NCBI RefSeq assembly: GCF_947492455.1
Contig: NZ_CANLNB010000004.1
Span: 62,001-126,000 of the forward strand
DNA: 64,000 bases
Reading direction: 5' to 3'
From: an uncultured Aliiroseovarius sp.
Lineage (GTDB): Bacteria > Pseudomonadota > Alphaproteobacteria > Rhodobacterales > Rhodobacteraceae
The notes below the pieces were generated by a model. It made no database searches and was not told the DNA's origin. It saw nothing but the letters and a program-made list of their open reading frames with translations. The position numbers and the translations under genes were made by a program. This document shows, piece by piece, positions 33,614-58,637 of this stretch (position 1 is the stretch's first letter; each line of letters opens with the position of its first letter).

Positions 33614-33691
33614 CATTTTCTTGTCATAAATATCCTGGGGTGAGCCCGAAAGGGCGAGGGGCAAAGCCCCTCAGGCTCGCGCCAGCGAGCC
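33614..33691 (-). repeat. Modular hairpin 3' element, copy 1 (after hemF)
   Basis: Read on the minus strand, 11 bases after the hemF stop: the hairpin GGCTCGC/GCGAGCC, the hairpin GAGGGGC/GCCCCTC, the hairpin GCCC/GGGC, then CCCCA and the core GGATATTTATGACAAGAAAA. The same order of parts follows rsgA (51187) and, in a shorter form, the argH-lipoprotein pair (58561). It may act as a non-canonical terminator or 3' stabiliser. Confidence 0.75.
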
Positions 33692-49771: not shown

Positions 49772-49870
49772 GGCGAGAGGTTGGCGCGGGTAGGCGCCTC
49801 GCCAATCTGGTCAGGTCCGGAAGGAAGCAGCCACAACGAGCCCCGTCTGGGTCGTGTTCAGCCTCTCACC
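49772..49870 (+). ncRNA. ffs: 4.5S signal recognition particle RNA
   Basis: The invariant SRP RNA tetraloop region GGTCAGGTCCGGAAGGAAGC is present, with both sides of the asymmetric loop. The ends pair as GGCGAGAGGTTGG with CAGCCTCTCACC, giving the expected near-100-base hairpin. It binds Ffh for co-translational targeting. rsgA and dnaX are downstream; ffs near dnaX is common in bacteria. End positions are accurate to a few bases. Confidence 0.95.
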
Positions 49871-49872
49871 CA

Positions 49873-50155: not shown

Positions 50156-51187
50156 ATGACTTTGACACTTATGGACCTTGGCTGGTCCGCATCCTTCGAA
50201 CAGGCGCGCGCCGAATACCCGGACACGCTGACCCCTTACCGATTGACCGAAATCCACCGCGCGCAGATGAATGCGCTTGGCGCGGATGGCCCCGTGATTC
50301 TGACCACGCCGAAGTTCTCGGCTGGTGAGCTTGCGGTGGGCGACTGGGTTCTGGCGGACCCGGAAATGCGCATTCAGCATATCCTTGAACGCCGGTCGTT
50401 GCTTCAGCGACGTGGCGCGGGCACCGATGCTCATGTGCAGCTGATCGCGGCCAACGTGGACACGCTGTTCATCGTGACTTCGTGCAACGATGATTTCAAC
50501 GTCGCGCGTCTGGAACGCTTTCTGGCATTGGCGCACGAGGCCGGGTGCTATCCGGTTCTGGTACTGACCAAGGCCGACCTCTGCGATGACCCGCGTGAGT
50601 ACGAGCGCGAGGCGCAGGCGCTGGATCCGATGTTGACGATTCTGACTGTAAACGCGCGGGATCCCGAAAGTGCGGCCGAAGTGGCTGCGTGGTGCAAGGC
50701 GCCGCAAACCGCTGCCTTCATTGGCTCGTCTGGTGTGGGGAAAACCACGCTGACCAATGCGCTGACCGGCGGCGATGCGGCCACAGGCGGGATCCGCGAG
50801 GATGACGCCAAGGGCCGTCACGTGACCACGGCACGCTCGATGCGACCCATGTTGCAGGGCGGGTGGATCATCGACATGCCGGGCATGCGTGCGCTGCGGC
50901 TGTTGGACTCGCGCGAGGGCATCGACAACGTCTTTGACGATCTGGCCGAGCTGGAAGCGCAGTGCCGCTTTTCCGATTGCGCCCATGAGACCGAGCCAGG
51001 CTGTGCTGTTCAGGCGGCGATTGCGGCGGGGGATCTGGATCTAGAACGGTTGGATCGCTGGATGAAGCTGCGCAAGGGCGAGAAGAAGAACTCGGAAACC
51101 GTGGCGCAGTCGCGGTCGCGGGAGAAGAAGTTCTCGAAGATGGTCAATGCGCATGTGCGTGGGGCCGGTAAGCGCAAAGGTCGATAG
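50156..51187 (+). CDS. rsgA: Ribosome small-subunit-dependent GTPase A
   Basis: Circularly permuted GTPase that checks 30S maturation. The N-terminal OB-fold domain (residues 1-95) is followed by the GTPase motifs in permuted order: G4 TKADL, then G1 GSSGVGKTTL and G3 DMPGM. The zinc knuckle at the C-terminus is seen as CRFSDCAHETEPGC. The start at ATG 50156 fits family length (343 residues). The C-terminal tail is Lys/Arg-rich. The stop codon itself is part of the first hairpin of the 3' element at 51187. Confidence 0.94.
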   Translation: MTLTLMDLGWSASFEQARAEYPDTLTPYRLTEIHRAQMNALGADGPVILTTPKFSAGELAVGDWVLADPEMRIQHILERRSLLQRRGAGTDAHVQLIAANVDTLFIVTSCNDDFNVARLERFLALAHEAGCYPVLVLTKADLCDDPREYEREAQALDPMLTILTVNARDPESAAEVAAWCKAPQTAAFIGSSGVGKTTLTNALTGGDAATGGIREDDAKGRHVTTARSMRPMLQGGWIIDMPGMRALRLLDSREGIDNVFDDLAELEAQCRFSDCAHETEPGCAVQAAIAAGDLDLERLDRWMKLRKGEKKNSETVAQSRSREKKFSKMVNAHVRGAGKRKGR

Positions 51188-51272
51188 CTCGCTTCGCGAG
51201 CCTGAGGGGCTTCGCCCCAGAGGGAAAGCGGGTGCTTTCCCTCTTCCCCAGGATATTTAGGACAAGAAAATG
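51187..51272 (+). repeat. Modular hairpin 3' element, copy 2 (after rsgA)
   Basis: Read on the plus strand: hairpin GCTCGC-TTC-GCGAGC, hairpin GGGGC-TTC-GCCCC, hairpin AGAGGGAAAGC/GCTTTCCCTCT, then CCCCA and the core GGATATTTAGGACAAGAAAA. The order and core match the copy after hemF. The third hairpin differs in sequence, so the part seems exchangeable. Confidence 0.78.
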
Positions 51273-51276
51273 CGGG

Positions 51277-51762
51277 TTAGGGGCTGCTGGCCCAGTTTTT
51301 CTGTGCGTCGGTCTCGACGGCGCAGGGACGCACGGCGCGTAGGCGGTTGAGGGCCTTGTTCGGGGCTTCTCCGGTTTCACACAGGATACGCAGAAGCATC
51401 ATGCCGGACCGTCCGCAGCCGCCTTTGCAATGGGCCAGCACTTTGCCGCCTCGGGCGAGGGTGCGGTGGGCTTCGGGTGAGATACCTTCCCAGCTTGCAA
51501 TGATTTTCGCAGAGGGGGCGCCGAAATCCTGAATGGGGAGGTGGTGCCAGATGACGCCCGCCTGTGTCAGGTCGCGGCCCAAATCGGCAGCGCCAAAACT
51601 ATCCATTTCGCGCGTGGTGGTCATGGTCAGAACCATGTCTGGTGCCCAATCAAGCAGCGTTTCCAAGTCTTCGCGGTAAACTCCGCTTCGGCCGGGGATG
51701 GGGCAGATGCCAAGGATGCCGTTGCCTGCGGGCAGGTGTGCGATGGGAAAGAGCGGTTCCAT
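51277..51762 (-). CDS. Dual-specificity-type protein phosphatase
   Basis: Cys-based phosphatase of 161 residues. The P-loop is HCKGGCGRSG with Cys112 and Arg118. The general acid is probably Asp79 in PIQDFGAP. The WEGISPEAHRTLARGGKVLAHC context matches small bacterial dual-specificity phosphatases. No signal peptide or extra domain is present. The ATG at 51762 is preferred; longer frames overlap dnaX. It is divergent from dnaX. The substrate is unknown. Confidence 0.88.
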   Translation of the reverse strand: MEPLFPIAHLPAGNGILGICPIPGRSGVYREDLETLLDWAPDMVLTMTTTREMDSFGAADLGRDLTQAGVIWHHLPIQDFGAPSAKIIASWEGISPEAHRTLARGGKVLAHCKGGCGRSGMMLLRILCETGEAPNKALNRLRAVRPCAVETDAQKNWASSP

Positions 51763-51870
51763 GCGCTTGGCGTAGCACGCAGAAAGCCATCCGCCAATTG
51801 GCTTTCGGTGGACGGCGCGGCTTTGGCCGCATAGTCTGGCCCGGACACGAATCCGGCCCGAAGGCATTCC

Positions 51871-53631
51871 ATGACCGACACGCAATCCGACGCCCCCGCC
51901 TATCAGGTTCTGGCGCGTAAATATCGCCCTGAAACCTTTGCCGATCTGGTCGGGCAAGAGGCGATGGTCCGCACGCTGAAGAATGCGTTCGAGGCGGATC
52001 GGATTGCGCAAGCCTTTGTGATGACCGGCATTCGCGGGGTCGGTAAGACGACCACGGCGCGGATTATCGCCAAGGGGATGAACTGTATCGGTCCGGATGG
52101 GCAGGGCGGCCCGACGGTTGAGCCCTGTGGCGAGTGTGAGCACTGCGTCGCGATTGCCGAAGGGCGGCACGTGGACGTGATGGAGATGGACGCCGCATCC
52201 CGCACCGGGGTTGGCGACATTCGCGAAATCATTGAAAGCGTGCACTACCGGGCGGCCTCGGCCCGGTACAAGATCTATATCATCGATGAGGTGCACATGC
52301 TGTCGACCAGTGCGTTCAACGCGCTGTTGAAGACGCTGGAAGAGCCACCGGCACATGTGAAATTCATCTTCGCGACGACCGAGATTCGCAAAGTTCCGGT
52401 GACCGTGCTGTCCCGTTGTCAGCGTTTTGACCTGCGTCGGATTGAACCTGAAGACATGCTGGCCATGCTGCGCCGGATTGCCGATGCCGAGAAGGCCGAG
52501 ATTGCAGATGATGCGCTGGCGCTGATCACGCGGGCCGCCGAGGGATCTGCCCGTGATGCGCAGTCATTGCTGGATCAGGCGATTTCGCACGGGGCGGGGG
52601 AAACCACCGCCGATCAGGTGCGCGCGATGCTGGGCTTGGCAGACCGTGGCCGGGTTTTGGACTTGTTTGATATGATCCTGAAGGGTGACGCTGCGGGTGC
52701 GTTGACCGAGCTGGGCGCGCAATATGCCGACGGGGCCGACCCGATGGCGGTGCTGCGCGATTTGGCCGAGGTTTCGCACTGGGTCAGCGTCATCAAGATC
52801 ACGCCGGAAGCGGTCGAGGATCCGACGGTCTCGCCCGACGAACGCACGCGCGGGCAGCAGATGGCGCAGGCTTTGCCAATGCGTGTGCTGGCGCGGATGT
52901 GGCAAATGCTTCTGACCTCGATCGAGGAAGTTGGCCGTGCGCCCAACGCGATGATGGCGGCGGAAATGGCGGTTATTCGTCTGACCCATGTGGCAGATCT
53001 GCCCTCGCCCGAGGAACTGGTGCGCAAGCTGAAAGATAGCCCCACGCCGCCTGCAGGCCCGGGTGGTGGTGGCGGGATGCCAGCGGGCAATGGCGCGCCG
53101 ATGGGAGCGCCGGCCATGTCGACGCAATCTATGCCTTCAGGACCGGGCGGCGGGGCGACGGCCTTGGCCGTGGCGGCGGATGCCGAAACCTCGCTTGCGC
53201 GATATGCGCGGTTTGAGGATGTGGTCGAGTTGATCCGCACCAACCGCGACGTGAAGCTGTTGGTTGAGGTCGAAGGCGGAGTGCGTTTGGCCGCATACCA
53301 ACCGGGACGGATCGAATTCACGCCCTCGGACAGTGCCCCGCAGGATCTGGCGGCGCGTTTGGCGCAGCGCCTGCATGGCTGGACTGGTGTGCGCTGGGGC
53401 GTGACGCTGGTCAATGGCTGCGAGGCGCCGACCATCACCGAAACCCGCGATGGCGAAAAGCTGGCGCTGGAGGAAGAGGCCAAGGCGCATCCCTTGGTGC
53501 AGGCCGTGATCGCCGCCTTCCCAAAGGCGCGCATCACCGAAATCCGATCTGCCGAGGATATGGTGCAAGAAGCCGCCGAAGAGGGTCTGGCCGAGGTCGA
53601 AGACGAATGGGATCCGTTCGAGGAAGACTAG
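51871..53631 (+). CDS. dnaX: DNA polymerase III subunits gamma and tau
   Basis: Clamp-loader ATPase of 586 residues. The Walker A motif is GIRGVGKTTTARIIAKG. The zinc module is CGECEHC with an earlier Cys. Walker B/DEVHMLS, FIFATTEIRKVP and the SRCQRFDLRRI sensor region follow. The C-terminal part after residue 390 is Gly/Pro/Met-rich and ends in an acidic tail, the tau-type interaction region. No slippery heptamer with a downstream hairpin is obvious. It is the first gene of dnaX-ebfC-recR. Confidence 0.96.
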   Translation: MTDTQSDAPAYQVLARKYRPETFADLVGQEAMVRTLKNAFEADRIAQAFVMTGIRGVGKTTTARIIAKGMNCIGPDGQGGPTVEPCGECEHCVAIAEGRHVDVMEMDAASRTGVGDIREIIESVHYRAASARYKIYIIDEVHMLSTSAFNALLKTLEEPPAHVKFIFATTEIRKVPVTVLSRCQRFDLRRIEPEDMLAMLRRIADAEKAEIADDALALITRAAEGSARDAQSLLDQAISHGAGETTADQVRAMLGLADRGRVLDLFDMILKGDAAGALTELGAQYADGADPMAVLRDLAEVSHWVSVIKITPEAVEDPTVSPDERTRGQQMAQALPMRVLARMWQMLLTSIEEVGRAPNAMMAAEMAVIRLTHVADLPSPEELVRKLKDSPTPPAGPGGGGGMPAGNGAPMGAPAMSTQSMPSGPGGGATALAVAADAETSLARYARFEDVVELIRTNRDVKLLVEVEGGVRLAAYQPGRIEFTPSDSAPQDLAARLAQRLHGWTGVRWGVTLVNGCEAPTITETRDGEKLALEEEAKAHPLVQAVIAAFPKARITEIRSAEDMVQEAAEEGLAEVEDEWDPFEED

Positions 53632-58560: not shown

Positions 58561-58604
58561 TTTTTCTTGTCATAAATATCCCGGAGCGCGAGGCAGAGCC
58601 TCGC
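58561..58604 (-). repeat. Modular hairpin 3' element, copy 3 (after argH-lipoprotein)
   Basis: Read on the minus strand: hairpin GCGAGGC-TCT-GCCTCGC, then GCTCC and the core GGGATATTTATGACAAGAAAA (20 of 20 core bases as in copy 1). It has one GC hairpin of its own; another hairpin (58611-58637) lies between it and the lipoprotein stop. lysA starts 77 bases beyond the element. Confidence 0.75.
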
Positions 58605-58610
58605 AAAAGC

Positions 58611-58637
58611 AAACGCCGGCCACGTGGACCGGCGTTT
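58611..58637 (-). terminator. Hairpin after the small lipoprotein gene
   Basis: AAACGCCGG and CCGGCGTTT are perfect 9-base arms around a 9-base loop that itself contains CCACGTGG. It lies 4 bases after the lipoprotein stop. On the minus strand it is followed by GCTTTTGC, a weak T run. Confidence 0.6.

Follow-up and report, generated by a model that had tools for sequence, protein, structure and literature searches.

Here, we describe a family of gene-end modules found in a stretch of 64,000 nucleotides (the window) from an uncultured Aliiroseovarius sp. (contig NZ_CANLNB010000004.1, C4:62001-126000 of a 3.09-Mb genome). GC hairpins are followed in these modules by a bipartite core of about 20 bases, and we find that both parts of the core are matched by stretches of RNA-like cassettes, four of which occur in the same genome. 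On balance, we lean toward a joint reading in which the modules are read in trans by small structured guide-like RNAs and act at the 3′ ends of genes. The original prediction, made from the window alone, had proposed three copies of a common core of about 20 bases, each preceded by hairpins. All three were recovered, at 33616-33635 (-), 51251-51270 (+) and 58562-58581 (-), with one mismatch in copy 2 (GG for TG) and a chance expectation of 0 matches in the window (100 dinucleotide shuffles), and hairpins do stand ahead of the core in each. The prediction had read them as a non-canonical terminator or 3′-end module or, alternatively, as a small dispersed palindromic repeat; the match of the core to RNA-like cassettes was foreseen by neither reading.

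Modules and the cassettes that match them

The core consists of a tetrad, TAYTT, three spacer bases and then about 10 bases. Among 90 copies, two mid-core bases are free and the third is mostly G, and almost all remaining variable positions exchange only A with G or C with T. The genome-wide search suggested with the original prediction, allowing up to three mismatches, gave 59 places, and a relaxed core pattern gave 92, with 0 for the reversed-pattern control in both cases; one of 91 copies (L095), which has neither of the hairpin types described below, is probably a chance match. Our comparison covered 61 genomes, namely the source genome (G000), 20 of the same genus, 16 others of the family and 24 of other families. 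Core matches occur in all 20 same-genus relatives, at 3 to 162 places each against 0 to 2 for the control, the lowest count (G020, 3 places) barely exceeding the control. Results vary among the other 16 genomes of the family, of which seven have at least 17 places, and counts in the 24 genomes outside the family are near the control level. Among 50 named stretches that carry the core in extended form, 42 are Aliiroseovarius and the other 8 are metagenome assemblies. The modules appear to be a dispersed family within one family of Alphaproteobacteria, Rhodobacteraceae going by the named genomes. A plasmid or phage origin found no support in blastn searches, in which one module had no match in either collection.

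Pairs of facing cores 114 to 127 bases apart enclose a conserved stretch, the cassette, and other facing pairs, 12 to 21 bases apart, have nothing conserved between them. On its predicted RNA strand the cassette reads CGGTACAGGC-N6-GCCGATGACCG, followed by a guide-like stretch, D. This pattern is present four times in the source genome (twice on contig C2, once on C3 and once at C4:138170, 12 kb outside the window), one to five times per genome in 28 of the 36 family relatives, and in a single one of the 24 other genomes. The general core lies on both sides in 18 of 30 cassette loci and on one side in 5. When flanks are chosen by a D match of at least 6/9, a matching core is found at 98 of 112 flanks (56 cassettes, 14 flanks dropped), the tetrad having no part in the selection. 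Across 30 distinct handles, the stem pairs include 18 G.U against 3 A.C, and the pair beside the loop is compensatory (GC 19, TA 6, AT 4, GT 1), which together favor the named RNA strand.

Cassettes and the cores that flank them agree closely. D matches the flanking core at 9 or more of 10 bases in 32 of 36 cassettes, with a mean match of 8.83 compared with 7.24 in 200 shuffled pairings (standard deviation 0.13, largest 7.61). Over the 98 flanks, agreement at D positions 0-9 is found in 89-96 (91-98%), position 5 excepted, at which RNA G corresponds to core A in 86, and it falls to 42-66 (43-67%) at positions 10-13. The cassette tetraloop in turn is identical to the tetrad preceding TAYTT in 92, 92 and 97 flanks at positions 1-3 and in 58 at position 0, a mean of 3.46 of 4 compared with 2.48 (largest 2.79 among 5000 shuffles), and even the rare GACA, GGCG and GGGG loops are matched by their tetrads. 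Outside position 5, the differences (67 unique combinations) comprise 34 with RNA G and core A, 8 with RNA A and core G, and 30 transversions; the surplus of RNA G over core A is wobble-compatible with pairing to the core complement, but a single loop position contributes much of it (33 of the 98 flanks prior to merging). In all, there are 31 distinct right-hand guide sequences, with up to 4 per genome.

The agreement was also scored in trans in six genomes, as an exact match of the 9-base right half to a cassette of the same genome, with core A allowed for RNA G at position 5. The module lists came from patterns near the dialect of the source genome and took in the small number of cassette-flanking modules; those of G003 (62 modules), G004 and G030 lay outside the scoring. 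Matches to own-genome cassettes were found for 79 of 85 modules in the source genome (the 92 relaxed-pattern places minus 7 one-mismatch variants) and 41 of 41 in G009, and, among the first places listed, for 64 of 65 in G019 (of 162 places), 94 of 100 in G026 (of 133) and 46 of 50 in G023 (of 56). No module of G026 or G023 is matched by a cassette from the other five genomes. Dialects are shared within Aliiroseovarius, where modules of the source genome match G019 cassettes in 81 of 85 cases; with the left dinucleotide included, 43 match G019 cassettes versus 68 that match their own. The left dinucleotide tracks the right half (40/41 and 23/23 in G019; 57/62 and 32/32 in G026), which explains the linked positions within cores.

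In G026, a cassette with D near ACCAGGAGAAG was predicted in writing beforehand and then found. A scan of 400 kb of G022 that was blind to the right half gave 28 sites, of which 7 equal GACAGAAGA at 9/9 and have GGA before TATTT; the guides of this genome were known before the scan, and the prediction was not recorded beforehand. Similarly, a scan of 348 kb of G032 with the left half only gave 18 sites, 7 of them reading CTRAAGCA like cassette L302. Five of these seven lie away from L302, and the spacer is 2 or 4 in three of them.

Cores have changed in place at orthologous loci. Both rsgA and hemF were located in 20 of 21 same-genus genomes, the source genome included. A module is present at 12 of the 20 rsgA ends read and missing from 8, and its variable hairpin is swapped whole among close species; at hemF a module is present in 5 of 20 and is missing in 8 relatives whose next frame, judged by eye, starts like that of the source genome. 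Over about 400 kb of G005, GTAAG stands in 6 of 9 orthologous modules where the source genome has CAAG, and at rsgA of G005 the hairpins are nearly unchanged while the core is new (whole genome, 26 modules: GTAAG 19, GCAAG 5, ACAAG 2). The cassette can take part in such changes. Locus L084 of the source genome and L274 of G030 both lie between acyl-CoA dehydrogenase and CoA-ligase-like genes and have different dialects, both cores and D differing jointly, so that three elements change together in place.

The surroundings of the cassettes offer several further observations. A TTAAC(C) motif lies mostly 22 bases ahead of the stem (38 aligned; for example L084, L094, L172 and L280); no clear -10 box accompanies it, and it may be an unusual promoter element. 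At L172, L182, L280, L285 and L289, D is followed by a small hairpin, with a GNRA-like loop in some, and by a GC terminator in which the complement of the facing core supplies the T-tract. At L279, L291 and L298, an inverted repeat resembling ACCGGAT...ATCCGGT takes the place of the facing module. G049, a genome of another family, has three stem-pattern matches (L273), yet its module hits are near control only. The 15 proteins encoded next to 8 cassettes are of ordinary kinds; 13 have Pfam matches (one RuvX) and 2 have none, and no transposase or Cas protein is among them. An Rfam search of 8 loci (6 with cassettes) at E values up to 1 matched only the signal recognition particle (SRP) RNA. 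No such repeat or RNA is named in the titles and abstract openings returned by our literature search, and a text search for the core and cassette letters gave nothing relevant, a weak test given that sequences are rarely in text.

Gene ends and ordinary terminators

Gene positions were taken from our own gene caller, which is error-prone and missed the phosphatase-like gene beside copy 2. The upstream gene is on the strand of the module in 81 of 91 copies, the next gene is convergent in 57, and the core falls within a called frame in 4. For comparison, an unselected 224-kb sample has 201 gaps, of which 30 are convergent, 30 divergent and 141 co-directional. With copies excluded if they fell within a called frame or a gap longer than 500 bases, the remaining 81 copies comprise 53 in convergent gaps, 1 in a divergent gap, and 21 sense and 6 antisense in co-directional gaps; the relatives have 14 sense and 5 antisense copies in co-directional gaps and none in 42 divergent gaps. 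Orientation is uninformative for the copies in convergent gaps, in which the stop of the convergent gene lies mostly a few to about 30 bases past the core (58 loci). The original claim that copies stand at the 3′ end of a gene and in its orientation is thus borne out for position, whereas for orientation it must admit an antisense minority.

The hairpins follow a common plan in which G(n)-loop-C(n) is usually followed by a variable hairpin, then C(n) and the core (73 of 91 copies); in 11 copies GCCTYCGGC replaces the G/C-run hairpin, and 7 have neither type. As originally proposed, the hairpin sequence varies while the hairpin itself is kept. The variable hairpin (H3) forms a stem of at least 4 pairs in 64 of 65 copies, compared with a shuffled mean of 13.5 and a largest value of 22, with 33 different arms; in the other 8 of the 73, the space is too short to hold it. 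Mismatches in 179 stems (GT 3, AC 5, other 18) reveal no strand preference, and the module hairpins are palindromes that are good on both strands. The C run before the core mostly equals that of the preceding hairpin in length (rank correlation 0.82, 84 copies). We rejected the idea that the G run pairs instead with the terminal C run, the correlation with the shorter of the G and C runs being 0.61; since the terminal run tracks the hairpin C run better, it looks like a direct repeat. Inspection of about a third of the copies for local folding of the core gave nothing consistent.

The module and the canonical intrinsic terminator, defined here as a GC stem and a T-rich tail with at least 5 T in 8-9, tend to exclude one another in the source genome. 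In a strand-split count of convergent gaps, an ordinary terminator with A-tract, stem and T-tract is present in 14 of 17 without a module compared with 10 of 42 with one (Fisher p=6.6e-5), and one of the three module-free gaps that lack a terminator (L020) actually holds a variant module. Other length limits gave 15 of 17 compared with 14 of 53, such that 39 of the 53 module-bearing convergent gaps have no canonical terminator on either strand. TATTT is the only T-rich part of the core, and L039 and L092 passed the T-tail test through their own core. In the source genome, therefore, the module tends to replace the ordinary terminator, and it most likely serves as a terminator substitute, often for both convergent genes. 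It resembles canonical intrinsic terminators in that a GC hairpin is followed by an AU-rich stretch at gene ends, and it differs from them in having no U-run after the hairpin and in conserving a sequence-specific tail of 20 bases. At four convergent gaps (L164, L171, L189 and L205), the core complement forms the T-tract of the opposite gene's ordinary terminator.

How the modules may be read

In the joint reading, the modules would act at 3′ ends in place of ordinary terminators, and the bipartite site would be read in trans by small structured RNAs, encoded by a few cassettes in each genome. Each RNA would display the tetrad in the tetraloop of its hairpin and the 10 bases directly after the stem, both as sense copies, with something common, probably a protein, recognizing TAYTT. 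RNA-directed recognition is favored because it requires just one RNA gene for each dialect, a simpler arrangement than a separate protein for each. Since both stretches are sense, they could pair only with the complementary strand, either the bottom strand of DNA or an antisense transcript, and DNA may be the better fit, since modules in co-directional gaps lack a regular antisense transcript. Transcription of the cassette, its pairing, a protein partner and 3′-end formation as the outcome are all predicted from sequence patterns. We speculate further, and regard this as possible though doubtful, that gene-end marking is programmed by RNA, such that each RNA uses two guides, a 4-base one in the loop and a linear one of 10 bases, to direct the predicted protein to tens of DNA sites, where the bound complex stops RNA polymerase arriving from either direction and leaves the 3′ end protected by a hairpin, with sites changing guide over evolution. 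Such a roadblock would account for the gene-end position, the convergent use, both orientations and the missing U-tracts.

Several observations weigh against the joint reading. The shuffled pairings ignore the relatedness of the genomes, and two of the four cassettes in the source genome match only their two flanking modules. None of the 26 modules of G005 matches exactly, the one cassette found there differing at the first guide base, and G002 has ACAAG modules and only GCAAG cassettes were seen. The second cassette of G022 matches no site, the right half of at least six sites there is without a cassette seen, and ten guides of other genomes reach 8/9 (none 9/9) at the same seven sites, so that specificity there comes down to one base. 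In G032, 11 of the 18 sites are unlike the CTGAAGCA cassette; in G030, the 17 listed modules are mostly GCAAGATGA, and neither of the 2 cassettes read (of 4) matches them. No cassette was found at one mismatch in G004, which has 57 module places, and G035, with its three cassettes, showed no clear module over 400 kb. As to action at gene ends, the exclusion of terminators is not significant in the relatives (5 of 9 module-free versus 5 of 22 module-bearing gaps, strand-split, p=0.10; 8 of 17 versus 11 of 31, p=0.54, in a first count without quality limits), antisense copies occur, and the hairpin mismatches reveal no preference for an RNA strand; it is these three points that the original terminator reading, supported by the exclusion in the source genome, has to answer. 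An ordinary terminator also precedes copy 3, which therefore need not be a terminator there.

We consider it unlikely, though more credible than the other alternatives, that the modules form a selfish system like the repetitive extragenic palindromic (REP) sequences, in which the master unit would be a cassette together with its pair of facing modules, and single modules its dispersed non-autonomous copies, an RNA gene replacing the transposase gene. According to PMC2817692, units of REP-associated tyrosine transposases (RAYTs) are flanked by two inverted repeats that co-evolve with the unit and whose abundance is tied to it. The present layout resembles them, as well as the bacterial interspersed mosaic elements (BIMEs), in its dispersed extragenic palindromes, a central unit between two inverted repeats, co-evolution and abundance tied to the unit; it differs in that the cassette is RNA-like and holds no transposase gene, and in that the bipartite core is conserved while hairpins vary. 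Presence and absence at hemF among relatives and hairpin sub-families shared among several loci also favor a dispersed repeat, and to this extent the original palindromic-repeat reading stands. The Y1 transposase (PF01797), however, is missing from the source genome and from 18 of 20 same-genus relatives (G019 has 8 matches and G006 one weak match), and membership in REP/RAYT proper was rejected on its absence from the source genome. The rsgA core, changed in place with hairpins nearly kept, is not what an insertion relic would show, and the RNA lacks TATTT-NNN between its two copies of core parts, so that the modules are not plain copies of the RNA.

Less likely still is that the cassette RNA pairs with antisense transcripts bearing the core complement and adjusts how stable these are, the main partners being the 3′ untranslated regions of convergent genes. 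As sense copies, the two guide-like stretches fit the core complement, and the convergent next gene at 57 of 91 modules, with its stop so near the core, would supply such transcripts, but the 21 sense modules in co-directional gaps have no convergent gene as an antisense source. It is very unlikely that the RNA is instead a decoy, as CsrB is for CsrA, for one protein that reads core RNA both in mRNA 3′ ends and in the small RNA. Here, as with CsrB, a small RNA holds sense copies of mRNA sites, in this case of both core parts; unlike in that system, there are several orthogonal sequences per genome, and 31 right-hand sequences, up to four in one genome, would need as many proteins. Finally, we find it scarcely credible that the module is nothing more than a non-canonical intrinsic terminator whose tail is conserved, and the cassette a local composite of cores with no role in trans, as the terminator-exclusion counts and the two cassettes that match only their own flanks might suggest, given that modules far from any cassette match those of their own genome, foreign cassettes match none in G026 and G023, and predictions were borne out both in G026 and for one guide of the two in G022.

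Known guide systems offer partial parallels to the joint reading. The nine-base left target guide (LTG) and four-base right target guide (RTG) of the IS110 bridge RNA pair with opposite strands, according to PMC11208160; a bipartite programmable guide (about 10 and 4 bases here) co-varying with its DNA site is common to both, whereas both stretches here are sense and fit one strand. No IS110-type recombinase is among the 15 proteins beside the 8 cassettes, the rest of the genome not having been searched. TldR proteins are TnpB-derived RNA-guided repressors, and they share with the present elements a short guide behind an RNA scaffold, a T-rich motif 5′ of the target and a proposed binding without cutting. 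The differences are the bipartite guide, the many gene-end sites per guide and a protein partner that here is only predicted; no TnpB-like protein is among the 15 cassette neighbors, and no genome-wide search for one was made. Two other accounts of the core were rejected. The ARN motif of Hfq is broken in dialects with U or C. The AU-rich cleavage motif of RNase E, as given in PMC6238624, would leave the dialects unexplained.

If the joint reading is correct, small RNAs with bipartite guides would address tens of chromosomal gene-end sites, and RNA guidance would be used outside defense and transposition. It would also explain how many convergent genes end in a GC-rich genome without U-tract terminators, and the 31 right guides with their many target pairs would be a natural orthogonal set for working out reading rules. 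Even as a repeat system, the family would be REP-like with specificity residing in RNA.

The three copies in the window

Copy 2 lies on the + strand. Its first hairpin, GCTCGC-TTC-GCGAGC (51187-51201), begins with the last base of the rsgA stop codon (TAG at 51185-51187), as the original prediction had it. The H2 hairpin GGGGC-TTC-GCCCC (51206-51218) and the variable 11-bp H3 (51219-51244), which is exchanged whole in some close relatives, are followed by a terminal C run equal in length to that of H2 (51246-51249), the left tetrad AGGA (51250-51253), counterpart of the cassette tetraloop, TATTT (51254-51258), which is almost invariant among copies, and the 10-base right half ACAAGAAAAT (51262-51271), counterpart of D. 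A reading frame with a dual-specificity-phosphatase-like domain (Pfam; 51277-52356, -, start uncertain) is convergent with rsgA and ends 6 bases past the core, which places copy 2 between convergent genes.

Copy 1 (- strand), behind hemF, has a first hairpin GGCTCGC-TGGC-GCGAGCC (33674-33691), H2 GGGGC-TTT-GCCCC (33658-33670), H3 GCCC-TTTC-GGGC (33644-33655) and the core AGGA-TATTT-ATG-ACAAGAAAAT (33615-33636). Copy 3 (- strand) has the hairpin GCGAGGC-TCT-GCCTCGC (58588-58604) and the core GGGA-TATTT-ATG-ACAAGAAAAA (58561-58582); between the lipoprotein gene and this copy, the sequence reads as an ordinary-looking intrinsic terminator with an A-tract, GC stem and T-tract (58605-58637, -). The gene names given originally hold by Pfam, with RsgA, coproporphyrinogen oxidase for hemF and a lyase with an argininosuccinate-lyase C-terminus for argH, and the gene after copy 3 is a pyridoxal-phosphate (PLP) decarboxylase of the lysA type. 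At gathering scores, Rfam matched only SRP RNA in the window, as a small bacterial SRP RNA gene upstream of rsgA (49774-49871, +; RF00169, 59.5 bits).
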